A stretch of DNA of 21,130 nucleotides from a virus. Positions 918 to 21,002 of the stretch are shown in pieces; the stretch's first letter is position 1, and every line of letters begins with the position of its first letter. The position numbers and the translations under genes are program-made. The stretch spans positions 1 through 21,130 of the IMG/VR virus record IMGVR_UViG_3300025890_000193; one strand, written 5' to 3'. The notes below the pieces were generated by a model. It saw nothing but the letters and a program-made list of their open reading frames with translations, searched no databases and was not told the DNA's origin.

Positions 918-3900
918 ATGAAAAAGAATCAACACTTAATATCAATACGAGGAGCCAAAGGAAAGGGCGGTGGCGGAAGCACATTTGAAGCAGATGATAA
1001 CATGTTTGCAAGACAGTCTGCTGCGTTTATTGACGCTCTGTGCGAAGGTCCAATTAAAGGACTAGTCTATGGGGACGCGTCAATTTTAATTGATGAAGTA
1101 CGTCTTAGAAATGTAAACCAGAGTACTGGACGTATTAGTCAAAAAGCTAACTTTAATAACTTTACTGTAATCACAAAAAATGGAGATGCAACACAGGTAG
1201 TTGATGCAGATTTTTTTGCTGAGTACCCCAGTGCAGCTACAACCAAAGATATAGGTAGTGCAGAACTACTAGAAAACGAACCTCAATACTTTACTATATC
1301 TAGTGGTACTTTTGAAAAAAGAGAAACAGACTATATAAAAATTACTGTATCTACTACTGGTATGTCTGCTATTACAAAAACAGGAGACAACAAGGGAGAT
1401 ATAAATACTACAGTTGTTTATTTTCATATTGATTTCAACTGGGTAGATAATTCTGGTGTTCATCATACAAGACAAATGTTTGATACAGGCTTTAGTGGAA
1501 AAGTTAGTGGTAAGTACGCACATACATTTGGTTTTAATATTGAAACAATTAAAGAAACTTCTACTATTAACGATTGGTCTGTAAGAGTAACTAAACTAAC
1601 TGCTAGTCCAGAAAGTTCGGATAGTAAAGAAGTTCAAAACGCTATTTATGTAGATAGCATTGAAGCTGCAATCGCTGATAAACTAGAGTACCCTTATACT
1701 GCTTATGTAGGTGGAGTTATAGATGCAGAAGCATTTAACAGCGTCCCTGCTAGAGGTTATGAAATTGATGGTAAGTTAATAAACATTCCAACTAATATGT
1801 ACCCTTGTGACTACAATGGTCGCAAACTTACTCTATCTTCAGCTTCAGGATTTTCTGTTGGTGACGTAATTAGTCAGACATTAAGTATAAGTAGTCTTAC
1901 AGCAGCGGGTAACGACGAGGAAGGGTATACTGCAACAGCAACAGTACCAGCACACGGAGTGGCAACTGGAGAGACTTTCAAAGCAACAATAGCAACTACT
2001 TCAGCTACAGATGAAGAACATTGGGAAGGAGAGTTTGTTTGTGTAGCAGCTTCCGCAACCACATTTACTTACACACTAAATAAGCCTTTTGATGACCTTG
2101 CAGATGCGTATAAAATTCTTGCTGGGGGAACTACCTGTGGAGGCACAAAAACCGCAGTTATGTTTAGTGGAGGTTTAGTTGATAAGATAGCAGGCAATAC
2201 ACTTTATCTTAGAAATGTAGCAGGTTCAACAAGTGCAGTTAATGGTACTATTTCAAATGGCACTACTACTGGAACTGTTACTTCACAATCACAAGTATTT
2301 ATACCTGCTAACTATAGAAGGATTAAATCTACAGAAAAACCTGGCACAGCCGAACAAGATTGGGACGGTACATACTATTTAAGCTGGTGTAATAATCCAG
2401 CATGGGTATATCACGACCTTATAGTAAATAAAATATACGGGCTAGGAAATTATGTGGAACAGTCCCAAGTAAACAAGTGGGAACTATTCCAAATTGGAAG
2501 ATACTGTGATGAGTTAGTACCTGCAGGTGTTGCAGCAGCAGACTTACTAAGCATACATTGCACAGCAGATACCAACTATATTCCGAGTGGATCGAGTGGA
2601 GAGCACGAACCAAGATTTAGTGCTAACTTAGTAATTAGTGGAAAGCAAGAAGCCTATAAAGTACTTAATGATGTTTCTAGTATATTTAGAGGTATGGCTT
2701 ACTGGTTAAATGGAGAAGCCTTCGTAGTACAAGATTCAGAAAAAGATCCTGTGTACCAATTTACAAACGCTAACGTAATAAACGGAGAGTTTAAGTACGA
2801 AGGAACAGGTAATAAAACAAGAACAAATTCTATTATGGTTAATTGGAACAATCCCCAAGACTATTATAGAAGTAGAACAGAAATTGTAGAACTAGAAGAA
2901 AGTTTACAAAAAGATACTGAGTTTGTAAAAGCAGAGGCAACCACAGCATTTGGTTGTACTTCAAGAGGTCAAGCAAGAAGGTTGGGTAAATGGAAGTTAC
3001 TCACTAATAATTGGAACACCAATACTGTAACGTTCGAAACTTCTTTGAACGCAGCCTTTTTGCGACCTGGCGATATAGTACAAGTCATTGACCAACACAA
3101 AGAAGGTAAATCATGGGGTGGAAGAATCTCTTCTAGCTCTAGTACTACAGCAATCAATATAGATAGAAAACCAAGTGGCTTTGGTAATACAAGCGCAGAA
3201 TCTGGTTATGCTGTAGGAGACTATAGACTTACATTAAGTTATGTAGGGTATAAAGCAATTCTTGCACAAGATACTGCTACTATTAGTAGCACAGCATACG
3301 TAAGAGGAGCACACCTTACTAGTATAACTACTGAGGAAGCTGCAGCCAGATTACAAGATGATAGCGGAAACTTAGTGTTTGTACAATGGACACCTTTTAC
3401 TTTCACAGAAACAAAAACAGTATCAGGAGTATCAAATAATGGAAAAACACTTACAGTTTCTTCTGCTTTTAATACTGCACCTACTCAAGAACAGGTCTGG
3501 ATATTATCAAGAGCAGCTCTAGCTACAGGTAAAACGAAAAAAGAAGCCAAGCTCTTTAGAATGGTGGGTATGGTTGAGAAGGATAAAAATCTTTACGAAA
3601 TCACAGCACTCGAATACAATTCATCTAAATTTGATGCAGTTGATAAAAATGAGGCACTAACACAGTACAGGGAAATATATTTACCCGATAGTTTTAAAGA
3701 GGTTCCTGCTGTAACGAATTTAGATGTAGAACCAAGAATTAGAGCTACAGGTAGTGGAGGCACCGTAAATTCATTAGTAGTAGACTGGGATCCAGCTACA
3801 AATAGTGATGGTACACTATACAATTCTGTCAGGCACTATGAAGTTGAGTTCTCACAAGATGGAGAAAAGTGGCATAAAGCAGGAACAAATCAAAGTACTG

Positions 3901-6900
3901 ACTTTGAGATAACTGATGGTACTGTAGGGGATATTGCAATACTTAGTGGTACTTACTACTTTAAAGTATATTTAGTAAGCTTAAACGGGATAAGAAGTCC
4001 TGTAACTGAAAGCGGTGCAAAAACTATAGACTTCAACAGAGCTGTAGGTCCCGCAGAAGGTAGTATAGGTACTACTAGCCATTTTATTAACTTTATTGGA
4101 AATATTAGTGGAGACTTTAGTCTTGAAGCGGGTAAAGTAACATTTAGCCCACAAAATCTTTTTCATAATGACGGAAGAAACGAACATGCAGTCACTAGTC
4201 AAGCTCAGCTTGATTTTACAGGATTAGACCATACTTCTACAACAGGTGGAAATGAAGGTTATGTTTATTTTGATCACAGTGCTGATGCCTTTATAGCCGT
4301 TGCTTTCGATGTAACTTCAGGACAATTTTATCCTGTAGGAAGTAGTGTATTTGCTACTGCAACAGGTACACTTACCTCTGCAAATCGAAAAACCTGGACA
4401 GGATTAGATAGTACTAATTTTGATGGGGATTTGTCAAAAGGTAATGTATTTAAGTTTACTCACAGTAGAAGCGGAAGTTCCATAGACTACTATCACAGAG
4501 TAAAAGAAATTATATCTGACTCTGAAATGCTATCCTTTGTGTCGTCAAACCAAACTATAACTAACATAGATAATCAAGCATTTTCAAAACCTAACTTTTT
4601 AGCGGACTTCGTAACTGATACTATTATGGGTAAGGTTACAAAGACAGGAGCGAGTACTTACACTTTACAGAAGTATGGGTCGTCTCAGGGCGAATCTGCT
4701 TATGGTGTAGGCGCTACAAATCTAAACTTTACATTTGACGCTAATCTTGATGGAACAGTAACAAATGAAAGTGCCTATAGTTGTGACTTCATTATTAGAA
4801 AAGGGGGTCAGGATTATACTTTTGCAAGTAGCGGTACAACTCAACATACCTTTGGATTATCTTTACAAGCAAGAACTGGCTTTGATAATGATAGTGATAT
4901 AGTTATTAACTCGTCAACTGGACAAGTAACAATCGGCGATGGGGATATGGACGCCCATACTGCAGCCACTGCAACAATACGAATATTTGATAGAGGACGC
5001 TCAGACTTACTAATTGAAGATAAGATATTATCTTTTACAAAGTCTTCACAAGGAACGGCAGGGGAAGATGCAAAACTTGTAGTTGTAACTCCTAGTTCTC
5101 AGATAATGACAAAAGAGGTGTTCCCAGAGGATTATGGATCGACGTCTACTTTCTTCCACCCTACAAGTATAACAATTACAGCACAATGTACAAATACGAC
5201 ACAAAATGGAACATGGTCAAACTCTGGAGGTAGTATAACTTCTAGCAATACCATTACAAACGGGAAAGCTACTGCCACAGTAAATTCTACTCAACTTGTA
5301 GATGATATGACAATTACATATACATTACATGCAGACGATGGCGGTGCTTCAGATACTACTCAACTCCATTTACTAGAAATGTTTGCTGGCTCAGTGCAGC
5401 CAATTCTTTCTAATCCTGCTCATGTGCTTCCAGCAAGTAAGGCAGGAGTAGTGAGCGACTATACTGGTAGTGGTACACGTATAGAAGTGTACCAGGGAAC
5501 AAATCGATTAGACTATGATGGAGTAGGTACTGCTGCAGGACATTGGAAAGTAACTGTAGGGAATGTAGGAGATATTACAGAAGGCACCGCAACCTCTGCA
5601 GGAACAAATGGCGGCAGATACGCAAATATCGGAGATCATTCCGGCATGTCCAATTCTGTAGATTTTAAAACAATTACCTACACTATTACAGGTAAGGCCA
5701 CAGATGGTACTGCATTTAGTTTTGCACAGCCCCAAACAATTACAAAAAGTAAAACAGGGCAAGACGGTACTGCTGGGCAAAGTGTAAAACACGAAACTAT
5801 TTTTAGAAAGAATGTCAGTACTATCGACGACGACGTAGGTACTTTTGCTAGTCCTCTTACAGGTAATAGTGATTGGTCTCTTTCAATGCCCGCCCTTACA
5901 GCAAATGGAGATATAGCATACGCATCCTCTAGAACTTTTACTTCAGATGGAGCGTCTCCCCAAGATGCAACTTGGTCAACGCCTATAGCCGCACTTACGA
6001 GAACAAATGGTACAAATGCTACTCCATTAACAATTACTGATACTGACACCTCAGTTGCAGGTGAAACTACACTTACCTTTAGTGATGACTCTACCTTTAC
6101 AATAAATGATGGAGACAACGGTGACGATGGAGATGGTATAGATGTAATTTATCAAAATTCAAGTACAGCCCTTACAACCGCTCCAGCTGATTCAGCAGGT
6201 GCACCAACTGGTTGGTCATTCACCGCTTCGGCTCCTTCGACTAACGAAAAGACTTATATTTCAATTGGGGTACGAACACAAAATACAGGTTCATATGATT
6301 GGTCAGTTCCTTCTGCAATAACAGCATTTGACGGGGATAACGGAGCAGGAGTAAACTTTGTATTCGCGAGAAGCGCTACTAAACCAAACACTCCTACAGC
6401 AAACGGACTCAACATTCCTAGTCAGGACATACAATGGTATGATGATCCCCCAAGTGGAACTACTACTTTATGGTCTTCAAAAGGTACAGTAGGAGTTAAC
6501 GGAACAGCATATGCATGGGGCGCAGTATTCCAAGTAGAAGGAAGCGCAGTAGCGGAATTAAAATGCTACTCGGATGTTGTAGCAAATAATGGAGCTTCTC
6601 CTACTAAACCTGGTACTTCTACTTATAATGCAACTAATTCTACTCTTACACTTAACGACACAGATTGGAATCTTACTCCTCCAAGTGTAACAAACAATGG
6701 AGATACTGTATATTCTTGTACTGTTCTTGTAAGTGGGTCACCTAACGCTACCGCTATAGCTATTGGTACCGGCTGGTCAACGCCAGTAATACATACTAGA
6801 AAAACAGATGGAGCAACAGGAGACCCCGGTAAACTAGTACAAGAACTCAGACTCTATAAATTACAAAGTAATTGGACAGCTACCGGCACTACTGTAGCAA

Positions 6901-8678
6901 ATACAGCACCTACGTCAGGTGTTTATACTTTTAGTACAGGAGCCTTAGCATCTATAGCTAGTGGCTGGTCGCAAACAAGACCTGCAGTAACTGCTGGATA
7001 CTTTGTTATAGAATCAGCAGCCTTGGCTACAGAATCTAGTTCAGGAAGTGATACGTCTTCAGCGCTAACTTGGAGTACTGCATCTGTAAGCTCAGAAGGT
7101 GTTCAGTTTACTAATTTTATATTCTTAAATCATAACGGTAGTCCAGGAACTCCAACTGCAACAGCATACCCAGATTTACCAACAAACAACCCCAACTCTG
7201 GAGATAACTGGAGTGACAGTCCACCAGCCGCAGTATCAGGAAAACAATTATGGTCTTCAAAGGGCGTGGCTAAACTTGCAGGAAGTTTCCCTACTTTTAC
7301 ATTTAACTATACGTGGGAAACTCCAGTAGTTCATGTACAAAACAAGGCGGATGTAGGTCTAGGCTCCGTAACAGACGGTGCGGACGTTACTGCAAATAAT
7401 ACAGCTAACAATGTTTCAAATGTAGGAAACCAAACTGTAGCAAATGCTCAAGATGGAGTAGCAAGAGCTAGAGCAGGACTAAATGCAGACGGAGATGTTC
7501 AGAGAGAAGTTCCACAAAATAAAGGCGGAACAGGTCTTACTTCGGCAGGAGCTGCTATTCAAAATAGTAAAATCACAACAAATGCAAATGGCACGCTTAA
7601 CTATGATGGTACTACCGCTGCTGCTCCATCTTTAGCAAGTATAAGCGGAACACTCCCAAGAACAAAAGGTGGGTTTGGTATAGATATAGATGCTCTAGTA
7701 GGTAACGCAGCAAAAATTCCAAGATGGAATGGCTCTGCTTGGGTAGCAGATACACCTACTGCATTCAGAGGAACTATTGGAGCTGGTACATCAAACTTTA
7801 GTGGAAGCTATGCAGACTTGTCAAATATTTCTATTACTGATGCACAATTAGCAGGTAGTTCTACAATTACAAAAGAAGGGGACTTTGAGTTTAATAGTAT
7901 TGGTGTATCTAGCGGTTCGGCAGCTAGTTCCTTCAGCACAACAGACGGCTCTAGCTATACTGCAAATAACACAACAGGTACAATCACAGTTGACCACCCA
8001 TTAGATAGTGTGTCTTCTCAAAGTTGTACTTATACATGGCTTAGAGATGGCGACAATATTCGAGCAAATACAGGCTCGGGTAGTGAAGGATTTGCACTTA
8101 CAAATACAGGCACAGGAGCAGATGCATGGACATTTAGTCCCGCTACCTTTACTGCTGCAACAAGTAAAACTGTTACTGTTACACATACCCAAAGTGGGCT
8201 TACAATTACAATGAGTTGTTTTGTTATTGATACAAGTTCTTCTGGAGGCGGAGGCGGCGGAGGTGGAGGCTGTTTCCTTCCTGGCACTCTCGTAGACTTA
8301 GAAGAAGGACAACAAGCTATCGAAAGTTTAAAAGTAGGACAAAAGATAAAGGGTGCTACAGTTACTAAGAAAGAATCATTTGAAGTTGATTATTGGTACA
8401 AGCTAAATGATATACAGATTACAGCAGGACACCCAGTATGGATAGAAGATAAAGGCTGGTCTTGTATTGACCCAGGAGAGTACTATAGGGAACATCAGTT
8501 ATTTGGTCATAAAATAGAACTAGAGCCTAAACAAATAGAAATAGGCGATATGACTACTAATGGTTCTATAGATATAATTAACAGAATTGATGAAAAACAA
8601 ACTGTATGGAATATTACAGTTGATAACGAACACACCTATTATGTAGACGGCATGTTAGTACATAATAGTAAACAATAG
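918..8678 (+). CDS. Giant tail-tip / host-specificity protein, lambda gpJ-like, with C-terminal Hint (mini-intein) domain
   Basis: This 2586-aa protein is about twice the length of lambda gpJ (1132 aa). Residues about 30-65 (SAAFIDALCEGPIKGLVYGD) are the gpJ family N-terminal signature. Residues about 500-610 hold the conserved 'YGLGNYV..KWELFQIGRYCDELVP' and 'GMAYWLNGEAFVVQD' segments. About 928-1040 looks like a fibronectin type III domain (WDPA..., HYEVEFSQDG, YYFKVYLVSLNG). Then come Ig- or lectin-like modules separated by short Gly-X-X linkers (GTAGED about 1380, GQDGTAGQS about 1614, NGDDGDG about 1733, GDNGAG about 1805, GATGDPG about 1965). At least one module is duplicated: compare DDPPSGTTTLWSSKG and DSPPAAVSGKQLWSSKG. 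An NKGGTGLTSAG fibre motif lies near 2204. Gly2443-2451 leads straight into an intein-like domain (2452-2583), annotated separately. gpJ is the central tail tip that contacts the host receptor. The start is an ATG one base after the previous stop, with a weak AGGA upstream. Confidence 0.9.
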   Translation: MKKNQHLISIRGAKGKGGGGSTFEADDNMFARQSAAFIDALCEGPIKGLVYGDASILIDEVRLRNVNQSTGRISQKANFNNFTVITKNGDATQVVDADFFAEYPSAATTKDIGSAELLENEPQYFTISSGTFEKRETDYIKITVSTTGMSAITKTGDNKGDINTTVVYFHIDFNWVDNSGVHHTRQMFDTGFSGKVSGKYAHTFGFNIETIKETSTINDWSVRVTKLTASPESSDSKEVQNAIYVDSIEAAIADKLEYPYTAYVGGVIDAEAFNSVPARGYEIDGKLINIPTNMYPCDYNGRKLTLSSASGFSVGDVISQTLSISSLTAAGNDEEGYTATATVPAHGVATGETFKATIATTSATDEEHWEGEFVCVAASATTFTYTLNKPFDDLADAYKILAGGTTCGGTKTAVMFSGGLVDKIAGNTLYLRNVAGSTSAVNGTISNGTTTGTVTSQSQVFIPANYRRIKSTEKPGTAEQDWDGTYYLSWCNNPAWVYHDLIVNKIYGLGNYVEQSQVNKWELFQIGRYCDELVPAGVAAADLLSIHCTADTNYIPSGSSGEHEPRFSANLVISGKQEAYKVLNDVSSIFRGMAYWLNGEAFVVQDSEKDPVYQFTNANVINGEFKYEGTGNKTRTNSIMVNWNNPQDYYRSRTEIVELEESLQKDTEFVKAEATTAFGCTSRGQARRLGKWKLLTNNWNTNTVTFETSLNAAFLRPGDIVQVIDQHKEGKSWGGRISSSSSTTAINIDRKPSGFGNTSAESGYAVGDYRLTLSYVGYKAILAQDTATISSTAYVRGAHLTSITTEEAAARLQDDSGNLVFVQWTPFTFTETKTVSGVSNNGKTLTVSSAFNTAPTQEQVWILSRAALATGKTKKEAKLFRMVGMVEKDKNLYEITALEYNSSKFDAVDKNEALTQYREIYLPDSFKEVPAVTNLDVEPRIRATGSGGTVNSLVVDWDPATNSDGTLYNSVRHYEVEFSQDGEKWHKAGTNQSTDFEITDGTVGDIAILSGTYYFKVYLVSLNGIRSPVTESGAKTIDFNRAVGPAEGSIGTTSHFINFIGNISGDFSLEAGKVTFSPQNLFHNDGRNEHAVTSQAQLDFTGLDHTSTTGGNEGYVYFDHSADAFIAVAFDVTSGQFYPVGSSVFATATGTLTSANRKTWTGLDSTNFDGDLSKGNVFKFTHSRSGSSIDYYHRVKEIISDSEMLSFVSSNQTITNIDNQAFSKPNFLADFVTDTIMGKVTKTGASTYTLQKYGSSQGESAYGVGATNLNFTFDANLDGTVTNESAYSCDFIIRKGGQDYTFASSGTTQHTFGLSLQARTGFDNDSDIVINSSTGQVTIGDGDMDAHTAATATIRIFDRGRSDLLIEDKILSFTKSSQGTAGEDAKLVVVTPSSQIMTKEVFPEDYGSTSTFFHPTSITITAQCTNTTQNGTWSNSGGSITSSNTITNGKATATVNSTQLVDDMTITYTLHADDGGASDTTQLHLLEMFAGSVQPILSNPAHVLPASKAGVVSDYTGSGTRIEVYQGTNRLDYDGVGTAAGHWKVTVGNVGDITEGTATSAGTNGGRYANIGDHSGMSNSVDFKTITYTITGKATDGTAFSFAQPQTITKSKTGQDGTAGQSVKHETIFRKNVSTIDDDVGTFASPLTGNSDWSLSMPALTANGDIAYASSRTFTSDGASPQDATWSTPIAALTRTNGTNATPLTITDTDTSVAGETTLTFSDDSTFTINDGDNGDDGDGIDVIYQNSSTALTTAPADSAGAPTGWSFTASAPSTNEKTYISIGVRTQNTGSYDWSVPSAITAFDGDNGAGVNFVFARSATKPNTPTANGLNIPSQDIQWYDDPPSGTTTLWSSKGTVGVNGTAYAWGAVFQVEGSAVAELKCYSDVVANNGASPTKPGTSTYNATNSTLTLNDTDWNLTPPSVTNNGDTVYSCTVLVSGSPNATAIAIGTGWSTPVIHTRKTDGATGDPGKLVQELRLYKLQSNWTATGTTVANTAPTSGVYTFSTGALASIASGWSQTRPAVTAGYFVIESAALATESSSGSDTSSALTWSTASVSSEGVQFTNFIFLNHNGSPGTPTATAYPDLPTNNPNSGDNWSDSPPAAVSGKQLWSSKGVAKLAGSFPTFTFNYTWETPVVHVQNKADVGLGSVTDGADVTANNTANNVSNVGNQTVANAQDGVARARAGLNADGDVQREVPQNKGGTGLTSAGAAIQNSKITTNANGTLNYDGTTAAAPSLASISGTLPRTKGGFGIDIDALVGNAAKIPRWNGSAWVADTPTAFRGTIGAGTSNFSGSYADLSNISITDAQLAGSSTITKEGDFEFNSIGVSSGSAASSFSTTDGSSYTANNTTGTITVDHPLDSVSSQSCTYTWLRDGDNIRANTGSGSEGFALTNTGTGADAWTFSPATFTAATSKTVTVTHTQSGLTITMSCFVIDTSSSGGGGGGGGGCFLPGTLVDLEEGQQAIESLKVGQKIKGATVTKKESFEVDYWYKLNDIQITAGHPVWIEDKGWSCIDPGEYYREHQLFGHKIELEPKQIEIGDMTTNGSIDIINRIDEKQTVWNITVDNEHTYYVDGMLVHNSKQ
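8271..8666 (+). other. Hint / mini-intein (bacterial intein-like) domain at the end of the gpJ-like protein
   Basis: Residues 2452-2583 (132 aa) carry the full set of Hint signatures. Block A starts at Cys2452 with CFLPGTLVDLEEG and continues IESLKVGQKI. Block B is T2502-A-G-H2505 followed by PVWI. Block F has NEH(2572)TYYVDG, and block G is MLVH2582-N2583. The next residue is Ser2584, a valid +1 nucleophile, followed only by Lys-Gln and the stop. The length is that of a mini-intein or BIL-type domain; no homing endonuclease fits. In this family Cys1 attacks the peptide bond before it, and cyclisation of the terminal Asn cuts the bond after it. With a three-residue C-extein, the natural result may be splicing to Gly-run-SKQ, or cleavage that releases the Hint domain. 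Which occurs is inference. The preceding nine glycines would become the exposed end of the tip protein. Confidence 0.88.
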
Positions 8679-12302: not shown

Positions 12303-15083
12303 ATGGCACTCATAGGAAAAGAAAACGCGCTAGTCTCCACGCTTGAGGCAAACGCAGTAGGAACAACAGAAATAGTAAGTAATTCAATTACTGCAAGTGA
12401 GATAGCAGCAAACGCTGTTGGCTCTAGTGAGATTGCCGAAAACTCTGTCGGAACATCAGAAATATCTACTAATGCTGTTAGTGCGACACAACTACAATCA
12501 TCAGCAGTAACATCAGTCGCAGACGGGTCTATTGATTCAGACGCCTTGGCTGCAAATTCAGTGGATAGTGCAGAACTAGTAACTGGTTCAATAGATACTA
12601 TTCATATAGCAGCGTTGCAAGTAACAGCAGCTAAACTGGCACTTAACTCTGTAATTACAGCAAAAATTGCCGATAACGCAGTTACTGCAGCTAAAATAGC
12701 AGAGAATACAGTTGGAACATCAGAACTTGCTAATAACTCTGTAACTGCTACACAGATTCCAAGCGGAACTATTACAGCAGACTTAATGGGGTCAAACTCA
12801 GTAGACTCTGACGAGTTAGTAGACGGCAGTATCGATACTAGTCACTTAGGTAACTTACAGGTTACAGCTGGAAAAATTGCAGTAAACTCAATTACTTCTA
12901 CTAAAATTGCACAGAATCAAGTAACGGCTCATCATATAGCTGACGGTAGTATTACTGTTACACAACTAGGAGCAAACTCAGTAGATACCGCAGAATTAGT
13001 ATCTGGCTCTATTGACACTTTACATATAGGAGCAGCTCAGGTTACTGGAGCTAAGATAGCAAATAACGCTATTCAAACTCAACACATTGACGATAACCAA
13101 ATTACAGCGGATCAAATAGCCGCAAACTCAGTAGACAGCGCAGAACTAATATCTGGGTCTATTGATGCTATACACTTAGCAAGTGATGCAGTTATAACAA
13201 CAAAAATACTAGATGCTAATGTAACTACAGCAAAGATAGCAGATAACGCAGTTACTGCAGCTAAAATAGCAGACGGAAGTATTACTAGCACACAATTAGG
13301 TGCTAACTCAGTAGATAGCGCGGAACTTGTTACTGGTAGTATAGATACTATCCATATCGGCGCCTCACAAGTTACAACTGCTAAAATTAACGACGATGCA
13401 GTAACAAATGGGAAAATTGCAACAAATGCCGTTAATGCAGATAGCATAGCAGCTAATGCTGTTTCAGCAGCAGAACTTAAGTCAGATGCACTAAGCGGAC
13501 AAACAATGTCAGGTAACGTTACTTTCTCAGGAGACGTAACAGTATCAGGTACTTCATTCGCAGCTTCAGCTACTACAATTACTACTGGTGATTCTTTAAT
13601 CTCAATGGCAACAGCTAACAACAGCTCAGATGCAGTTGATATTGGTTTTTATGGATTATATGATACATCAGGCTCACAAGATTTATACTCTGGTATATTC
13701 AGAGACGCAAACTCTTCTGGAAAATGGAGACTTTTTAAAGACTTACAAGTACAGCCTACCACAACAGTAAATACTGGTGGAACAGGGTACACAGTTGCTA
13801 CATTAGTAGCCAACTTAGAAGGTGCCGTTACAGGTAATGCTACAACAGCAACTACACTATCTACAGGTAGAACAATCGGAATGACAGGAGATGTTGTTTG
13901 GACATCAGCTTCTTTTACAGGTGGTGGAGACGTAACAGGCACAGCAACAATTCAAGCAAATGCTGTAGAATCAGCAATGATAGCTGAGAATAATATTACG
14001 GCTAGAGAGATTGCAACAAATGCAATTACTAGTTCACTTATTGCTCAGAACTCTATTTTGACAAAACATATAGATGACGCACAGGTTAATACTGCACAAT
14101 TAGCAGGTAACTCTGTAACAGCTGCAAAGATACAAGCAAACGCTGTAGCAGCTTCAGAACTAGCACAGAACTCTATTGGAGTAATTCATATTCCAGATGG
14201 ACTAATTACAGCAACTCAATTAGCTGCAAACTCAGTAGATAGTGCAGAACTAATTACAGGTAGTATTGATGCAATACACCTTGCCAATGATAGTGTAACA
14301 GCAGATAAAATAGGAACTAATGCAGTTACAGCTGATGGGATAGCTGCAAATGCCGTAGGTAGTTCAGAGATTGCACAAAACGCAGTAACAGCTACACAAA
14401 TTCCTAGTGGTACAATAACCGCAGATCTTATGGGGGCTAACTCAGTAGATAGCGCAGAGCTAGTAACTGGTTCTATTGATAGTATTCATTTAGATACTGG
14501 TGTAGTAACAAACGGTAAGATAGCAGCTAACGCAGTTAATGCAGCTAAGATTTCAGCAAACGCTGTTGGGTCAAGTGAGATTGCAAATAACTCTGTAACA
14601 ACTACACAATTATCAAGTAGTGCTTTAGACGGCAAAACCATGACAGCAAGTTCTGGAGTAGTTATAGGTGCAACAACTCTTGGCTCAGGTGCAACAAATG
14701 TGAATGGAAATCTAGGAGTACAAGACTCTAATCCACCACAAAAAATTCATCTAGACGAAGTAGCTGGATTTGACGTCTCTACCCTTTCTAGTTCTTCTAC
14801 AGGACAACAGACAGTAGACACTTTTAGTGCTACTGCTTTTAGAACTGCAAAGTACTTGATTCAAATAACAAATAGTAGTGATTCTGACTACCAAGCATTA
14901 GAACTATTATTATTCCATGATGGTTCAACAGTATATTTAACACAGTATGCCTCCATATTCGATAATGGAGCGCAAGCTACTTTTGACGCTGATATTAACT
15001 CAGGGAATGTAAGACTAAGAGTTACTCCAGCTTCAACAGACACAATGACTATTAAAGTCTTAAGACAAACAATCGAGGTATAA
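12303..15083 (+). CDS. Long repetitive tail fibre (NSVDSAEL / NAVTAAKI repeats)
   Basis: This 926-aa fibre is built mainly from short repeats. Seven copies of NSVDSAELxxGSIDxxHx occur: five in residues about 75-350 and two more near 640 and 715. They alternate with NAVTAAKIADxxI / NSITSTKIAQNQV type units of about 10-12 residues with a strict hydrophobic rhythm, as in beta-helical or coiled trimeric fibre shafts. Residues about 390-550 break the pattern with a globular insert (SGNVTFSGDVTVSGT, SSDAVDIGFYGLYD, GKWRLFKDLQVQPTTTV, TGYTVATLVANLEGAVTGN), a domain frequent in cyanophage-type fibres. The C-terminal about 130 residues form a distinct domain (HLDEVAGFDVSTL, AKYLIQITNSSDSDYQALELLL, NVRLRVTPAS, IKVLRQTIEV), probably the knob. 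The start is an ATG one base after the previous stop, with GGAG 10 nt upstream. Confidence 0.85.
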   Translation: MALIGKENALVSTLEANAVGTTEIVSNSITASEIAANAVGSSEIAENSVGTSEISTNAVSATQLQSSAVTSVADGSIDSDALAANSVDSAELVTGSIDTIHIAALQVTAAKLALNSVITAKIADNAVTAAKIAENTVGTSELANNSVTATQIPSGTITADLMGSNSVDSDELVDGSIDTSHLGNLQVTAGKIAVNSITSTKIAQNQVTAHHIADGSITVTQLGANSVDTAELVSGSIDTLHIGAAQVTGAKIANNAIQTQHIDDNQITADQIAANSVDSAELISGSIDAIHLASDAVITTKILDANVTTAKIADNAVTAAKIADGSITSTQLGANSVDSAELVTGSIDTIHIGASQVTTAKINDDAVTNGKIATNAVNADSIAANAVSAAELKSDALSGQTMSGNVTFSGDVTVSGTSFAASATTITTGDSLISMATANNSSDAVDIGFYGLYDTSGSQDLYSGIFRDANSSGKWRLFKDLQVQPTTTVNTGGTGYTVATLVANLEGAVTGNATTATTLSTGRTIGMTGDVVWTSASFTGGGDVTGTATIQANAVESAMIAENNITAREIATNAITSSLIAQNSILTKHIDDAQVNTAQLAGNSVTAAKIQANAVAASELAQNSIGVIHIPDGLITATQLAANSVDSAELITGSIDAIHLANDSVTADKIGTNAVTADGIAANAVGSSEIAQNAVTATQIPSGTITADLMGANSVDSAELVTGSIDSIHLDTGVVTNGKIAANAVNAAKISANAVGSSEIANNSVTTTQLSSSALDGKTMTASSGVVIGATTLGSGATNVNGNLGVQDSNPPQKIHLDEVAGFDVSTLSSSSTGQQTVDTFSATAFRTAKYLIQITNSSDSDYQALELLLFHDGSTVYLTQYASIFDNGAQATFDADINSGNVRLRVTPASTDTMTIKVLRQTIEV

Positions 15084-15085
15084 TT

Positions 15086-15304
15086 ATGGGTCAAAAATTA
15101 CAATTTAATATTGAAGATTCGGGGTTGAGTATTGACGGTACAGAAATCGTTAATAGTAGCAGAACGATTACCAATTTGGACGTTCCAGGTACAAAAATGT
15201 CAGGTACAATTGCAGCAGCAAGACTACCCTACAGCATTACTACCACTGCTCCAACTTCCACTAGTGGAACATCAAGCGGACACGTTTGGTACGTGTATTC
15301 ATAG
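15086..15304 (+). CDS. Short fibre-like protein
   Basis: This 72-aa protein has MGQKLQFNIEDSGLSIDGTE at its start, then the fibre motif TKMSGTIAAARLP, and a C-terminal Ser/Thr-rich tail ending HVWYVYS. The 'sGTIaaARLP' stretch is common in repeat regions of larger phage fibres, here present alone. A GAGG (15075-15078) 7 nt before the ATG and two-base spacing from the upstream fibre gene support it as a real gene. An aromatic C-terminus (VWYVYS) recalls the ends of subunits that pack into a trimer tip. Function is unknown; a tip, cap or assembly partner for one of the flanking fibres is likely. Confidence 0.65.
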   Translation: MGQKLQFNIEDSGLSIDGTEIVNSSRTITNLDVPGTKMSGTIAAARLPYSITTTAPTSTSGTSSGHVWYVYS

Positions 15305-15314
15305 GAAAACTTAA

Positions 15315-18300
15315 ATGGCAATTTATGTAAATGACGGGGGTACACTTCGTACAATCCGCTTTATTGCGGTTAATGATGGCGGCACGATTCGTCGTGTCCA
15401 TCACGTTTATGTAAATGACGCGGGAACTTTAGAAGGCCCCTTTGATGCTATACATAATACTGCTAGAAGTACTAATACTCAAACTACATTTGTATCTGGA
15501 ACGCAGGAGACTTCGTTTAGTACAACTTGTACATTTGAAACAAACATAGATACTGCTACAACTTTCTTAACTGTAAAAGCAACAAATACAGTATTTGATA
15601 CTAGTAGAAGTACAACTTGTACTTTTACTACTGCTAGATCAACAACCACAACGTTTAATACTACTACGAACTTTACGACTACTACAGCGTATAATACTAC
15701 TAGAGATACAACGACTACTTTTAATACAACTACAAACTTTACTACAACGACTGTATATAATACAACGAGGGCAACTACAACCACGTTTGATAGTACTACA
15801 ACATATACAACTACAACCACGTTTGATACTACTAAAAGTACTACAACTGTATTTAATACAACTACAAACTTTACAACAACAACTACGTATAACACGACGC
15901 GTACGACAACGACTGTATTTAATACAACAACTAACTTTACAACTACAACTACATTTGAAACAAGTAAGGCAACTACTACTGTCTATGACACTACAACAAC
16001 CTTCAACACTTCATATGATACAACAATAAATACCAGTAGGTCTACAGGATTTACAAACAGTACTACAAATAATACTAATACTTGTTACAATACAACCTTT
16101 ACAAATTCTACTACTAGAAATACTAGTACTTCGTATAATACGACCTTTACAAATAATACAGCAAGAAATACAACTACTTCGTATAATACGAGCTTTGCAA
16201 ATGATACGACGAGAAGTTCAAACACTTCTTTCATAGTAGCTACAAATACAAGTTTTAGTACAAACACAGCAAGAACTACTGATAATGTAATTGTAAGTAC
16301 AAATACAAGTTTTAGTACAAACACAGCAAGAACTACTGATTTAGTAATCGTAGCTACAAATACTTGTTACAGTACAAATACTTCATATGCTTGTGCATTT
16401 ACAGTAGCTACAAATACTTCTTACAGTACAAACACAGCAAGAACTACTGATAATGTAATTGTAAGTACAAATACAAGTTATAGTACTAATACTTGTAGGG
16501 GTACGAATACTAGTTATAATACAAGTTTTACAAACAATACAACTAGAAATACGAATACAAGTTACCAAAGTACGTTTACAAACAACACTGGTGCCCATAC
16601 GAATAACACCAATACTTCGTATACTACAAACTTTACAAATAATACTGGTGCGCACACAAATAATACGAATACTTCTGCGATTGTAGCAACAAATACAGCA
16701 AGAAATACAAATACATGCTTTATAGCAAGTACAGGTTTTACAAATAATACTGGTGCTCATACAAATAACACCAATACAAGTTATCAGAGTACCTTTACAA
16801 ATAATACTGGTGCTCATACGAATAATACCAATACAAGTTATCAGACTACCTTTACAAATAATACTGGTGCTCATACGAATAATACCAATACAAGTTATCA
16901 GACTACCTTTACAAATAATACTGGTGCTCATACGAATAACACGAATACTTGTGCTATTATTTCAACTGGCTTTACAAATAATACTGCAGCAGCAGCAAAT
17001 AATACGAATACTTGCGCGATTGTAGGAACAAATACAGCAAGGGGTACTGCTCTAGCTGCTGTAAATACAAATACAGCGTGGTCAACAACTACATCGTATG
17101 CTACTCAGTTTACAAACAATACTCAATGGTTTATTGATGCAGAATTACCTTTAGGTACTCGAGCTACCAATACTTCTAGAAATACTCAGGGAGCCGCTGT
17201 AAATACTGCGGGAACTAATAGTACAAATACTTCTAGAAGTACAGGTTTTACAAATAATACAAATACATGCTATATTGTAGCAACGAATACTTGTTACAGT
17301 ACTAATACAGCAAGAAATACAAATACTAGTTATATTGCATCTACAAATACTTGTTATAGTACGAATACTTCTTATGCTTGTGGATTTATTGTAGCAACGA
17401 ATACTTCTTATAGTACGAATACTTCTTATGCTTGTGCATTTATTGTAGCAACGAATACTTCTTATAGTACGAATACTTCTTATGCTTGTGCATTTATTGT
17501 AGCAACGAATACTTGTTATAGTACTAATACAGCAAGAAATACAAATACTTCTGCGATTGTAGCAACTGGCTTTACAAATAATACAAATACATGCTATATT
17601 GTAGCAACGAATACTTGTTATAGTACTAATACAGCAAGAACTACTGATAATGTAATCGTAGCTACAAATACTTGTTACAGTACTAATACTTCTTATGCTT
17701 GTGAGTTTATAGTTAGTACTACATATTCTACTAATACTTCGAGAACAACTGACAATGTAATTATTTCAACTGGGTTTACCAATAACACAGGTCAGCATAC
17801 GAATAACACCAATACTTCGTATACTACAAACTTTACAAATAATACTGGTGCTCATACAAATAACACCAATACAAGTTATCAGAGTACCTTTACAAATAAT
17901 ACTGGTGCTCATACGAATAACACAAATACTTCGTTTACTACTTCGTTTACAAATAATACAGGTCAGCATACGAATAATACAAATACTTCGTTTACTACTT
18001 CGTTTACAAATAATACAGGTCAGCATACGAATAACACCAATACATGTGCGACTGCAAATACTACGTACTCGACAAATACAAGTAGACTAACTAATGTAGA
18101 CTCAATTGCTACAAGTTATAGTACTAACACTAGTAAAGTAACCCATGTAGACTCAATATCTACTAGCTATAATACGAATACTAGCAGACTAACAGATGAT
18201 GTTATTGTATCCACAACTTTTAATACAAATACTGCTAGAACTACAACGTACGAAACTACATTTGCAACGTCTAGGTCTAGTTCAAGAGCTACTTCAACGA

Positions 18301-18926
18301 GTAGAAGTACAACTACTGTTTATAATACAACCACTACAACAGCAAGTTCAAGGTCTACTTCAACAAGTAAATCTACAGTATGTACTTTTGAAACAAATAC
18401 AACAACAGCAAGTTCAAGAGCTACTCTTACGAGTAGATCTACAGTTTCAGTGTATGCAACAACACTTGGAACAATTACAAGTAGAGCTACTGCAACAAGT
18501 AAATCTACAGATACTACGTTTAATACGTCAACAACAACAGCAAGTTCAAGAGCTACTTCAACAAGTAAATCTACAACTTGTACGTTTGAAACGACAACAA
18601 CAACAGCAAGTTCAAGAGCTACTTCAACAAGTAAATCTACTGCAACTTACTTTGATACTACTAGAGATACCTCGACAGTCTTTGAGACAAGTAGTTCAAC
18701 AGGGTCTGTCTTTAATACTACCAGAGACACTTCAAGTGTTTACAATACTACTAGAGCAACAGACACCACAATCACAACTGAACATTTGACGACTATTGCA
18801 ACTGCAACAGACACAAATATTTTTGAAAGAATAACAGCCTCTCAAGCTGGGACTATATTCGATACTGAAGTATCAAGCGCTTCTGATGTCGGAGCCTCCT
18901 ATTGGGACGGTTCATCATGGAGCTAA
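15315..18926 (+). CDS. Giant Thr/Asn/Ser-rich repeat fibre
   Basis: This 1203-aa protein is one continuous frame. Three VNDGGT-type repeats with a 14-residue period (residues 5-10, 19-24, 33-38) form an attachment-like N-terminus. The body is almost entirely Thr, Asn and Ser with spaced aromatics. Residues about 110-219 are five 22-aa units (TTTTFNTTTNF..., with Arg/Lys near the end). About 235-960 mixes 18-aa units (ATNTSYSTNTSYACAFIV), 19-aa units (FTNNTGAHTNNTNTSYQST) and shorter NTARTTDNVIV units. About 987-1118 has six 22-aa units (SSRATSTSKST...). The last about 50 residues are unique and end YWDGSSWS. About two dozen Cys occur at set repeat positions, in place of Ser (NTNTC) or in YAC(A/G/E)F. 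There is no signal peptide or membrane segment. AGGA lies about 8 nt before the ATG. A long beta-solenoid or brush-like fibre is inferred; I recognise no named family. Confidence 0.8.
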   Translation: MAIYVNDGGTLRTIRFIAVNDGGTIRRVHHVYVNDAGTLEGPFDAIHNTARSTNTQTTFVSGTQETSFSTTCTFETNIDTATTFLTVKATNTVFDTSRSTTCTFTTARSTTTTFNTTTNFTTTTAYNTTRDTTTTFNTTTNFTTTTVYNTTRATTTTFDSTTTYTTTTTFDTTKSTTTVFNTTTNFTTTTTYNTTRTTTTVFNTTTNFTTTTTFETSKATTTVYDTTTTFNTSYDTTINTSRSTGFTNSTTNNTNTCYNTTFTNSTTRNTSTSYNTTFTNNTARNTTTSYNTSFANDTTRSSNTSFIVATNTSFSTNTARTTDNVIVSTNTSFSTNTARTTDLVIVATNTCYSTNTSYACAFTVATNTSYSTNTARTTDNVIVSTNTSYSTNTCRGTNTSYNTSFTNNTTRNTNTSYQSTFTNNTGAHTNNTNTSYTTNFTNNTGAHTNNTNTSAIVATNTARNTNTCFIASTGFTNNTGAHTNNTNTSYQSTFTNNTGAHTNNTNTSYQTTFTNNTGAHTNNTNTSYQTTFTNNTGAHTNNTNTCAIISTGFTNNTAAAANNTNTCAIVGTNTARGTALAAVNTNTAWSTTTSYATQFTNNTQWFIDAELPLGTRATNTSRNTQGAAVNTAGTNSTNTSRSTGFTNNTNTCYIVATNTCYSTNTARNTNTSYIASTNTCYSTNTSYACGFIVATNTSYSTNTSYACAFIVATNTSYSTNTSYACAFIVATNTCYSTNTARNTNTSAIVATGFTNNTNTCYIVATNTCYSTNTARTTDNVIVATNTCYSTNTSYACEFIVSTTYSTNTSRTTDNVIISTGFTNNTGQHTNNTNTSYTTNFTNNTGAHTNNTNTSYQSTFTNNTGAHTNNTNTSFTTSFTNNTGQHTNNTNTSFTTSFTNNTGQHTNNTNTCATANTTYSTNTSRLTNVDSIATSYSTNTSKVTHVDSISTSYNTNTSRLTDDVIVSTTFNTNTARTTTYETTFATSRSSSRATSTSRSTTTVYNTTTTTASSRSTSTSKSTVCTFETNTTTASSRATLTSRSTVSVYATTLGTITSRATATSKSTDTTFNTSTTTASSRATSTSKSTTCTFETTTTTASSRATSTSKSTATYFDTTRDTSTVFETSSSTGSVFNTTRDTSSVYNTTRATDTTITTEHLTTIATATDTNIFERITASQAGTIFDTEVSSASDVGASYWDGSSWS
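15642..15971 (+). repeat. Five 66-bp (22-aa) tandem units, protein-conserved
   Basis: Units begin at 15642, 15708, 15774, 15840 and 15906. Each encodes TTT(T/V)F(N/D) - TTTNF - TTTTxY/F - xTxK/R. The encoded residues are conserved, but the Thr and Asn codons differ freely among units (aca, acc, acg and act are mixed). This points to old copies held by selection on the protein rather than recent DNA duplication. Confidence 0.85.
16582..16914 (+). repeat. 57-bp (19-aa) repeats, FTNNTGAHTNNTNTSYQ
   Basis: Copies anchored on the NTGAH codons begin at 16582, 16639, 16744, 16801 and 16858; a further partial one begins at 16915. Spacing is 57 bp except for a 105-bp step from 16639 to 16744. The units at 16801-16857 and 16858-16914 are identical over all 57 bases, showing a recent duplication. 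More copies of the same unit lie at about 17780-18040. Confidence 0.9.
16737..17920 (+). repeat. 89-bp exact direct repeat pair
   Basis: Bases 16737-16825 and 17832-17920 are identical by direct comparison. The copies are offset by 1095 bp, exactly 365 codons. Recombination between them would remove or add 365 codons without shifting the frame. Confidence 0.85.
17391..17552 (+). repeat. 54-bp (18-aa) tandem units, ATNTSYSTNTSYACAFIV
   Basis: Units begin at 17391, 17445 and 17499 at the codons for VATNT; the third diverges after about 25 bases into an NTARNTNTSA segment. The first two differ from each other by very few bases. The unit also appears in older, scattered form around 16350-16420, 17280-17390 and 17590-17710. 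Confidence 0.85.
18273..18668 (+). repeat. Six 66-bp (22-aa) tandem units, SSRATSTSKST
   Basis: Units begin at 18273, 18339, 18405, 18471, 18537 and 18603. Each encodes (T/A)SSRAT-STSKST-xxxF/Y, with Arg and Lys six residues apart. Units 18537 and 18603 are nearly identical in DNA; the others are diverged. The period equals that of the first repeat block (22 residues), though the residues differ. Confidence 0.85.
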
Positions 18927-18929
18927 AAT

Positions 18930-19124
18930 ATGGCACAGCCAAAAGAAGATAAATCTCACAATTATAGAAATAGTGATATAACAGCTGATTATGTTAACAA
19001 AAAAATGGAAGGACTAATGTCTGCCCTATTTGATACAATCGGCGAAAATGAAGAAAGAATAAAAGACTTGGAAATGCAAGTTTGGAAGTTAACTGAGCAA
19101 GTAGAGGGCAGAAATGTCTCTTGA
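18930..19124 (+). CDS. Small coiled-coil protein, unknown
   Basis: This 64-aa soluble protein has a basic, polar N-terminus (MAQPKEDKSHNYRNSDITAD) and then a helix (about 22-60). Its heptad-like hydrophobics (VNKKMEGLMSALFDTI, IKDLEMQVWKLTEQV) predict a short coiled coil. GGAG (18919-18922) lies 7 nt before the ATG, and the gene begins 3 bases after the repeat-fibre stop. It overlaps the next gene by 11 nt. Given its place it may trimerise or chaperone the fibre, or assist the next enzyme. No family is recognised. Confidence 0.7.
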   Translation: MAQPKEDKSHNYRNSDITADYVNKKMEGLMSALFDTIGENEERIKDLEMQVWKLTEQVEGRNVS

Positions 19125-20016
19125 TCAGTTATCAATAAATGAAAAGTTAGGGGACGTCCCTACTCACTTCATGAAATCAGGTAGCTGTATGCCACCAAAA
19201 GCTAGATTAGATATACTAGCAAAATTTCGTGAAGAAACTGTACCTGAAGAATATAATGGGTGTTCATTTGAATATGACCTTTGGTATAATACTAATGAGT
19301 TACATACTATTAGAACATTTTTGTATACAGATTTTTTAGGGGGTGGAATATTCTACCGAGTAAATAGTGTAAAGATAAACGATGCAGTTATGCACAGTAT
19401 TGCTAATTCAGATATAAAGATTGATGAAGAAAGAATACAAAAAATAATTGATAGTTTAGGCAACAAGTACCAATTAAAGTTTAATAGAGCTACACATGAT
19501 AAAGTAGTCTTCCCTCCAGGAAGCAACTTAATACAAGGTGGCAAAAATGTACTTGATTGGAAAAAGCTAGACCATATGGTTAATAATGAGGGGTATGTAA
19601 TTAAACCACACCCCATTACAGCGCACATTTGGTGTGCTAAGTATCGAGAAAGATACGGAAAAGATAAAGTATTAGATAAAAAGATTGGAGGACATGAGGT
19701 TCTTCAAAGATGTACGGATATGGCATTTTGTCCTAATAGTCAGATGGGCTTTGAAGCCTTACTGCTAGGGAAAAATATCCATTCAGTAGCTACTCCTAGA
19801 GTTGCTAGAGAAAAGAATCATCTTACTTATGAAGCAATATATCAAGGAATCGCAGGAAAAGCGTGTGGTTCAAGAACGGCTCTCATGAAAATCTTATCTA
19901 GTAAAAGATCAGGCATAGTTTTTCATTTTGATGAAGATGCAAATGAAAGAGTAGAAAGGTATTTAGAACAATTTTGGGAATTTACTTTTAAAGGAAGAGA
20001 AAAGGTATTTAAATGA
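19114..20016 (+). CDS. Capsule (KpsC/KpsS-like) glycosyltransferase-like protein
   Basis: This 300-aa soluble protein shows features of the GT-B capsule polysaccharide synthesis family that includes the Kdo transferases KpsC and KpsS. The clearest are IKPHP (K164-P-H-P167), then S209-Q-M-G-F-E-A-L-L-L-G-K followed by a strand and ATP(R)V. In that family the 'KPHP' and 'S.GFEALL.GK' pair line the nucleotide-sugar site. The region between (GHEVLQRCTDMAFCPN) fits the strand-helix order of a Rossmann half. The N-terminal half is unlike any domain I know. The start ATG at 19114 overlaps the previous gene by 11 nt and has GAGGG 5 nt upstream. It ends in an ATGA overlap with the next gene. A sugar-transfer role is fairly likely; the acceptor (host surface glycan or the phage fibre) is unknown. 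Related capsule enzymes in host genomes suggest possible acquisition. Confidence 0.7.
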   Translation: MSLDQLSINEKLGDVPTHFMKSGSCMPPKARLDILAKFREETVPEEYNGCSFEYDLWYNTNELHTIRTFLYTDFLGGGIFYRVNSVKINDAVMHSIANSDIKIDEERIQKIIDSLGNKYQLKFNRATHDKVVFPPGSNLIQGGKNVLDWKKLDHMVNNEGYVIKPHPITAHIWCAKYRERYGKDKVLDKKIGGHEVLQRCTDMAFCPNSQMGFEALLLGKNIHSVATPRVAREKNHLTYEAIYQGIAGKACGSRTALMKILSSKRSGIVFHFDEDANERVERYLEQFWEFTFKGREKVFK

Positions 20017-21002
20017 TAGATATAGTAATTTTATGTGAAGAAATAAACACACAATTAACTCTGAGTTCTTTATTGAACAATTCGGAGAACTTCCGCTTGC
20101 ATTTATTTTGTAGAAGGGAACAAGCCTACGACAAGCTTAAACCTACTATGGACTGGGCTATTAAAAACTTTAGAGAAGTTCATGTATACCAATCCCCTTT
20201 TAAACACAGAGGTGAAGGCTCCCAAAAACTTGCCAGAACTATTTTACAATTTAGAGAAAAATGGAAAGACAAAAACCCTCCTGGAGGGCCAATAGAGAGA
20301 GTTATTGTGCATACCCAAGGTGCAAGAATATTTAATGCACCATTTAGAGGCAATGTTCCTACTGTAAAACAGATGGGGGACAACTTAGTATTTTTCTCTA
20401 GAAAGAATCAGTACTTTGACCACCCATTTTATGGAAACTACTACAAAATTTTAGATTTACCAGCTACTAAAGATGAGAAAAACGAACAATTCTTACTATT
20501 GAATTGGAAGTTATTTAAAGACTTTAGTCCTCAACATTATTTCTTAAATGGAAAGCCAAGCAGAGTCGTAGATAAGACTAGTGAAACACCTAAATACTTA
20601 CATGATACAGATTCATTTATTTTATCTGCTAATAGCGCTCAGCTAATTGTTAATCTTAAGAAAAGAAAATATGGTTGGATGCCGCTGTACTTTGATATGC
20701 AAGTTGATGAACTAATAAAGAAAGAGGCAATCGGCCCTAAAGATGTAGTAAATCACAATACAATGATGCGAAAATCTTTTTCTATGTGTGCTACTACAAA
20801 TGACTTATATGCAAATTATTTTGATATGCCTACACTACATTATATGGCGATTCCTTGGGACTTATGGGCAAATAAAATTGATGATATTCCCTTACCAATT
20901 AGATATCAAGGATTTAACGAAAAACTATTGACAAAAGCAGATAAGCAGAAAAAGTACTTAAGAAAAGTATATGAAGCTGGGTACTTGCTAGGAAAAATCT
21001 AA
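20013..21002 (+). CDS. Unrecognised 329-aa protein, possible sugar-transfer partner
   Basis: The start ATG overlaps the previous stop as ATGA, so the two genes are translated together. The protein is soluble and starts with a hydrophobic strand (MIDIVILCEEINTQ) and a helix (LTLSSLLNN), then a second strand (FRLHLFCRRE). This resembles the opening of a nucleotide-sugar binding fold, but no clear DXD or other catalytic motif is present; H-D-T-D-S (about 197) is the only candidate. The middle has many aromatic and basic residues (NQYFDHPFYGNYYK). The end is Lys-rich. Position next to a KpsC/S-like protein suggests a joint pathway. I do not recognise a family, and the sugar link is inference. Confidence 0.65.
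   Translation: MIDIVILCEEINTQLTLSSLLNNSENFRLHLFCRREQAYDKLKPTMDWAIKNFREVHVYQSPFKHRGEGSQKLARTILQFREKWKDKNPPGGPIERVIVHTQGARIFNAPFRGNVPTVKQMGDNLVFFSRKNQYFDHPFYGNYYKILDLPATKDEKNEQFLLLNWKLFKDFSPQHYFLNGKPSRVVDKTSETPKYLHDTDSFILSANSAQLIVNLKKRKYGWMPLYFDMQVDELIKKEAIGPKDVVNHNTMMRKSFSMCATTNDLYANYFDMPTLHYMAIPWDLWANKIDDIPLPIRYQGFNEKLLTKADKQKKYLRKVYEAGYLLGKI

Follow-up and report, generated by a model that had tools for sequence, protein, structure and literature searches.

A threonine-rich viral protein with mirror-complementary halves: a putative tail fibre built of giant beta-hairpins

We analyzed a viral DNA record of 21,130 bases (IMG/VR record IMGVR_UViG_3300025890_000193, hereafter the window) that contains an open reading frame for a 1203-residue marine phage protein at positions 15315–18926 on the plus strand. 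The first half of this protein, read forwards, faces the second half, read backwards, in a residue-by-residue complementary code that is shared by dozens of relatives. From these sequence patterns we propose, with a probability of about 0.77, that the protein is a tail fibre made of one or more giant antiparallel beta-hairpins, in which the two chain ends sit on the virion and the middle of the chain forms the tip that binds the receptor.

The reading frame is intact, starts with ATG and is preceded a few bases upstream by AGGAAAA. A first-pass annotation of the window had described a frame dominated by Thr, Asn and Ser and built from 18-, 19- and 22-residue units with regularly placed aromatics. 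The composition (T 34%, N 14%, S 11%, F+Y 9%; Thr, Asn and Ser together 59%), the autocorrelation (peaks at lags 38, 19, 22, 6, 28 and 16, against a chance identity of 0.16) and the aromatic spacings (mostly 4, 6, 10, 12 and 8) bear out that description, and a 16-residue unit is found as well. The mirror relation between the two halves did not feature in it. The protein divides as follows.

15315 to 15458, + strand: N-terminal domain, residues 1–48, with three VNDGGT-like motifs, 69–90% conserved among 14 relatives
15459 to 16109, + strand: outer N leg, residues 49–265, mostly 22-residue units of pattern F-6-F-6-Y-4-R-6-F, facing residues 956–1172
16110 to 17096, + strand: inner N leg, residues 266–594, with 16-, 18- and 19-residue units and gapped pairing with the C leg
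17097 to 17186, + strand: tip, residues 595–624, predicted as strand 595–605, turn 606–613 (DAELPLG) and strand 614–624
17187 to 18179, + strand: inner C leg, residues 625–955, partner of the inner N leg
18180 to 18830, + strand: outer C leg, residues 956–1172, partner of the outer N leg, with 22-residue units in the mirror order Y-10-R-6-K-6-F
18831 to 18926, + strand: C-terminal stretch, residues 1173–1203 and the stop codon, ending in WDGSSWS and anchoring the mirror register

Searches of viral contigs with the whole protein and with both ends recovered many relatives, dozens in all and of very different lengths; the first-pass annotation had suggested looking in marine viral metagenomes for proteins with the same repeat units and the VNDGGT start, and related proteins with conserved repeats are there. 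Thirty-one representatives of 742 to 1578 residues were taken into the mirror analysis. The distinct stretches noticed earlier at the two ends, the VNDGGT-bearing N-terminal domain and the C-terminus with WDGSSWS, are conserved across relatives, with 72–88% identity over the last 96 residues. Residues 18–48 of the N-terminal domain lie in mirror register with the C-terminal stretch, and we take the domain (residues 1–48) as the putative virion-attachment end. In close pairs of relatives the legs are under purifying selection (dN/dS, the ratio of non-synonymous to synonymous substitution rates, of 0.09–0.39). Because it has relatives, a fixed gene order and legs under purifying selection, the frame is, by sequence criteria, a functional protein and no chance low-complexity frame. 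The earlier suggestion of an attached virion-type protein likewise fits the conserved ends, this selection and a position in the tail-gene block in 28 loci.

Mirror register and pairing code

Each residue i was compared with residue S−i, where S = w+23 (positions counted from zero) and w is the Trp of the last WDG. Among 160 registers tried, w+23 was the best in 27 of the 31 representatives, with bulky residues opposing bulky residues and correlations of up to 0.87. The four exceptions had w+23 in second place (two proteins) or in third place or nearly tied (the window protein and relative L003). Two members of a second clade, L165 and L167, which carry an unrelated N-terminal domain (MALKIWDGD...), again gave w+23 as the best register, scoring 58 and 40 where the runners-up scored 30 and 17.

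The facing residues follow a code. Across 10,354 pairs from 21 representatives the most telling combinations were F:R (400), Y:R (262), F:Q (190) and F:K (53), with the reverse orientations R:Y (170), Q:F (147) and R:F (133), and Trp stood opposite Gly. Same-type pairs were rare (F:F 8, R:R 8, Y:Y 0). Mutual information of facing residues was 0.71 bit in register vs 0.19–0.42 at other shifts. As a control, one leg was rotated against the other, which keeps local repeats and composition; no rotation reached the observed complementary count in any of the 31 proteins, which together have 1786 complementary and 61 same-type pairs where about 226 complementary pairs are expected. Side chains at i and S−i are thus in register in 31 of 31 representatives, and also in the window protein when it is scored out of sample, as described below. 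Two origins of the mirror were considered and rejected: a mirror duplication, as the facing residues are complementary, not equal, and a DNA palindrome, since a reverse-complement copy would not yield Thr opposite Thr; the gene has just short imperfect inverted repeats.

For the window protein itself, a pair matrix trained without it and its near subfamily was applied to residues 56–262 and their mirror partners. The score was 105, while 206 rotations gave a mean of −146 (standard deviation 37, maximum −20) and a parallel control reached −10 at best. In this stretch 26 of the 38 F, Y, W, R, K or Q residues of the N leg face a complementary partner and none faces a residue of its own type; every 48-residue segment across residues 51–266 picked register 0. 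In the window subfamily, the His of the GAH or GQH motif is enriched opposite a Cys of the other leg (29 + 27 pairs). Should the fibre be a trimer, such His:Cys pairs in the inner legs could form a metal site.

Paired indels, strand geometry and the proposed mid-chain tip

Between diverged relatives, insertions and deletions on one leg are matched on the other at mirror positions. Two relatives of 85% identity, L036 and L037, show one series of length differences on either leg (−20, +18, +6 and +2 residues): on the N leg these lie at distances 449, 524, 534 and 545, on the C leg at 437, 525, 537 and 545. Total indels also balance between legs in L128/L131 (+2/+2) and L137/L138 (+10/+10). At 25 leg positions the aromatic lies on the N leg in some relatives and on the C leg in others. 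By analogy, these paired indels and orientation swaps would correspond, in a protein, to the compensatory changes that RNA stems undergo.

Steps from one paired position (rung) to the next are 6 (989 cases), 4 (506), 10 (198) or 8 (64) residues and almost never odd, so the rungs of one leg lie on a single face of an extended chain. On that face, 84–87% of the non-rung residues are Thr; the opposite face carries Thr, Ser, Asn and Ala, and F, Y, R and K are nearly absent from it. Rungs four apart swap orientation in 409 of 484 cases, and rungs six apart keep it in 691 of 940. Rung parity is constant along the legs, and the confident structural model is confined to the tip; this two-residue parity, together with the hairpin predicted at the tip, suggests extended beta strands along the whole of both legs.

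The middle of the chain differs from the legs. A Thr/Ser/Asn-poor, non-repetitive patch lies at 0.49–0.51 of the length in nearly all relatives from 742 to 1578 residues (the few exceptions are proteins in which our simple detector chose another stretch), and at 0.51 in the window protein. As the patch stays at the middle while the length doubles, the two halves must stay equal. The mirror rule places the mid-point between residues 610 and 611. AlphaFold2, run on the central 112 residues with 24 aligned sequences, predicted strands at 595–605 and 614–624 joined by a turn at 606–613, with a predicted local distance difference test score (pLDDT) of about 91 at the turn; this modelled hairpin agrees with the mirror rule to within two residues. 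In 30 proteins a turn motif of PExG type is found no more than 6 residues from the predicted centre, so that model and motif both put a turn at the centre of symmetry. A Foldseek search of BFVD with the central model gave no match with an expectation value (E) below 0.3, which is unsurprising for a hairpin of this small size. Identity among relatives is about 0.99 far from the centre, is lowest within about 120 residues of it and amounts to 0.74–0.86 within about 105 residues. Seven pairs allowed dN/dS of the tip to be calculated, and in every one it was higher than that of the legs. The family therefore shows the pattern of a tail fibre, a conserved attachment end and a variable distal end.

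Proposed architecture and its alternatives

In the architecture that we propose, the first half of the chain would extend from the virion as a strand and turn at its exact middle, and the second half would return beside it; the two termini would then meet at the virion, and the tip would lie mid-chain. Side chains would alternate: one face would carry the rungs, 4 or 6 residues apart, with an aromatic opposite Arg, Gln or Lys and Thr between, and the other would be coated with polar Thr, Ser, Asn and Ala. The rung face would probably become buried when several hairpins assemble, most likely three of them with six strands in all, and the fast-changing tip would most likely be what binds the host receptor. 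The window protein could then reach about 190 nm with its strands parallel to the axis, or about 150 nm if they are tilted by 40 degrees.

Several results weigh against this proposal. Over the whole leg of the window protein, the bulk correlation at w+23 is 0.20, in third place behind a best register of 0.22. In the inner legs (residues 266–594) a rigid register fails and one-residue bulges are needed: 19-residue GAH units pair with 18-residue units of the other leg, with a one-residue bulge per GAH. This gapped pairing scored 155, against rotations with a mean of 15 and a maximum of 117 and a parallel score of 13; one rotation is therefore close, and the test is weaker than that of the outer legs, as its matrix was refined on the window's own subfamily. 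The residue pairs predicted by AlphaFold2 sum to 1219−2 (counted from zero), two below the mirror rule, and pLDDT in the central fragment is below 50 past the first strands, leaving about 30 central residues that are confident. A full-length prediction of relative L060 (776 residues, 5 alignment rows) had a mean pLDDT of 28.6 and stayed below 50 throughout. Some near-identical contigs (96–99%) carry an unpaired one-unit indel; in L048/L051, L081/L082, L062/L063 and L018/L019, near-identical proteins differ by one unit (19–30 residues) on a single leg. These may be recent unbalanced changes or assembly collapse.

Structure prediction, proposed by the first-pass annotation, therefore gave a mixed answer: the central fragment came out as a hairpin, and the full-length relative was uninformative, which is no evidence of disorder. 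The monomer prediction perhaps failed because the rung face is buried in the multimer alone. The same annotation had named a beta-solenoid, a mucin-like brush or a sugar-binding surface as possible forms; none of these is supported, and the solenoid and the brush are now disfavoured, as neither a brush nor a plain solenoid needs residue-exact mirror complementarity or paired indels.

The main rival is an antiparallel homodimer, in which two extended chains lie head to tail and the mid-chain patch is the middle of the fibre, not a tip. The mirror code and the indel pairs would look just the same under it, but it predicts neither the short turn motif of PExG or DAELPLG type at the centre nor the confident intrachain hairpin of the AlphaFold2 model. 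Moreover, the centre evolves fastest, as expected of a tip, and the register sum is odd in about half of the proteins; were the strand continuous, an odd sum would interrupt its parity at the centre. We regard the homodimer as quite unlikely. Two beta-solenoid legs lying side by side, a hairpin of solenoids with 16–22-residue coils, would account for the repeat units of 16, 18, 19 and 22 residues, and Thr-rich solenoids exist. Unit length, however, changes freely within one leg and across the family (16, 18, 19, 20 or 22), giving no regular coil length, while the rung steps are even and mostly 4 or 6; distant coils would have no need of residue-exact complementarity or of paired 2- and 6-residue indels. 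Prediction usually succeeds with solenoids, and it did not with the full-length relative. This arrangement seems to us still a little less probable than the homodimer. Least credible of all is an intrinsically disordered or mucin-like glycosylated brush. The richness in Thr, Asn and Ser, the 93 N-x-S/T sequons of the window protein and the low-confidence full-length model would suit it, but a brush would not conserve facing residues over 1000 residues, and the capsule-synthesis match of an adjoining gene is below the cut-off (E 0.038), with none among 18 relatives.

There is also some room, though we judge it unlikely, for a hairpin that is right in structure and serves a function other than receptor binding, as a passive spacer, a tail or head decoration or a surface-adhesion whisker. 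The J-like protein and the 926-residue fibre encoded in the same block (see below) could be the receptor binders, and the presence of the hairpin protein in virions is itself deduced. Against such a role, the tip is the most variable part, with dN/dS above that of the legs, as is typical of receptor-binding ends.

If the giant-hairpin reading is true, a simple rule applied to a single sequence reveals the long-range contacts of a protein of more than 1000 residues, something that no current predictor achieved here. Abundant uncultivated marine phages would then have a type of fibre that carries its host-binding tip mid-chain, and this would offer a natural template for designed fibres of programmable length; the variable tip would be a handle on the host range of phages known from metagenomes only. 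It would also pose an evolutionary puzzle, namely by what route insertions of equal size come about at two mirror positions that hundreds of codons separate. We lean, at somewhat better than even odds, towards a new class of protein fibre and a new fold: a multimer of giant beta-hairpins, the largest exceeding 1500 residues, with a long-range pairing code (aromatic:Arg/Gln/Lys, Trp:Gly, His:Cys), compensatory substitutions, paired indels and a mid-chain receptor-binding tip.

Known systems, searches and gene neighbourhood

As a functional kind, tail fibres are well known. The trimeric long tail fibres T4 gp34/gp37 and T5 pb1 are likewise long, thin and beta-rich, are encoded in a tail module and have a variable receptor-binding tip. 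They hold the N-terminus at the virion and the C-terminus at the tip, whereas the hairpin protein would have both ends at the base and its tip mid-chain; its shaft is defined by mirror complementarity, and the protein lacks a sequence match in PHROGs, Pfam or PDB. In CdiA, one of the two-partner-secreted adhesins of FHA/CdiA type, the chain runs out and the receptor-binding region lies mid-chain at the distal tip. Filaments of that type are bacterial beta-solenoids, with no homology to the hairpin protein detected, and we know of no residue-by-residue complementarity between their halves. Ladders in which the aromatics of a strand pack against Arg from the strand beside it occur in thrombospondin type 1 repeats (TSRs) and in WSXWS motifs. 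Such ladders are local, with three to six residues in a small domain, while the hairpin protein has about 580 residues per leg and pairs F/Y with R/Q/K. A Trp/Arg cation-pi ladder in TSRs is among the subjects discussed in PMC6954052. RNA stem-loops, as an analogy only, share the mirror-complementary code, the compensatory changes and the paired indels that keep a long hairpin; here the hairpin is a protein, and its gene has no matching DNA inverted repeat.

The architecture has no match among Pfam, PHROGs and PDB sequences or in the open papers searched (NCBIfam was searched with the neighbouring genes). Profiles of the two ends matched no fibre family, the N-terminal one hitting just designed Pizza proteins, weakly. 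Neither end found a bacterial or archaeal homologue in 84,980 genomes. INPHARED (50,697 phage records), searched with the whole protein, its ends and its inner repeats, gave nothing but the N-terminal motif of phage ZF40, although low-complexity filtering may hide repeat matches, and no cultivated phage carrying the hairpin gene was found in the phage records searched. None of these papers describes a phage fibre that is Thr-rich or a hairpin; preprints and most subscription journals were outside the scope, so an earlier description is possible. In Pectobacterium phage ZF40, gp68 opens with a similar 43-residue stretch (35% identity), and its gene follows directly on two annotated tail-fibre genes. 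After the VNDGGT-like N-terminal domain, gp68 (L171:3001-3570) continues with an ordinary non-repetitive domain. That combination beside tail-fibre genes suggests, by sequence resemblance, that the VNDGGT-like domain is a reusable attachment module.

In the window the hairpin gene lies in a tail and fibre gene block, downstream of lambda I- and J-like tail genes, an LtfC/BppU_N-like gene and a 926-residue tail-fibre protein. Its neighbours include the following.

918 to 8678, + strand: J-like central tail fibre or host-specificity protein, which gives the block its tail context (phrog_1727, E 3e-134; phrog_31, E 6e-129; PF13550, E 2e-23)
12303 to 15083, + strand: 926-residue tail-fibre protein with another type of repeat (phrog_892, tail fiber protein, E 5e-84), syntenic
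15086 to 15304, + strand: 72-residue gene directly upstream, always adjoining the hairpin gene (synteny)
18930 to 21002, + strand: three downstream genes (18930-19124, 19114-20016 and 20013-21002), kept beside the hairpin gene in most loci

Gene order around the hairpin gene is constant in the 28 loci, as far as each extends: LtfC/BppU_N-like gene, fibre-like genes, 926-residue fibre, 72-residue gene, hairpin gene. Our searches gave no family match for the 72-residue gene and no PDB or NCBIfam match for the downstream genes. Glycosylation by the latter was considered and rejected, as the Capsule_synth match given above was weak and occurred in 1 of 19 members, with no PDB match. The matches of the J-like protein were too general to point to one host.

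At the C-terminus of the J-like frame (8259-8675) is a Hint/intein-like stretch that starts with CFLPGTLV, ends with VHNSKQ and weakly matches Intein_splicing, Hint_2 and PT-HINT. Since just three residues follow VHN, this end may cleave itself off and not splice as an intein would. The 926-residue fibre (12303-15083) carries parallel 'AVTAAKIADNAVT' repeats, a type common to cyanophage and roseophage tail proteins. In the second clade, a collagen-like run (Gly-Glu-Arg type triplets) is encoded downstream of the hairpin gene (L163:8100-8650). The longest relative (L125:2-7171) has more than 2390 residues with its N-terminus cut off; if the mirror rule holds for it, this relative would form a fibre that greatly exceeds the others in length.

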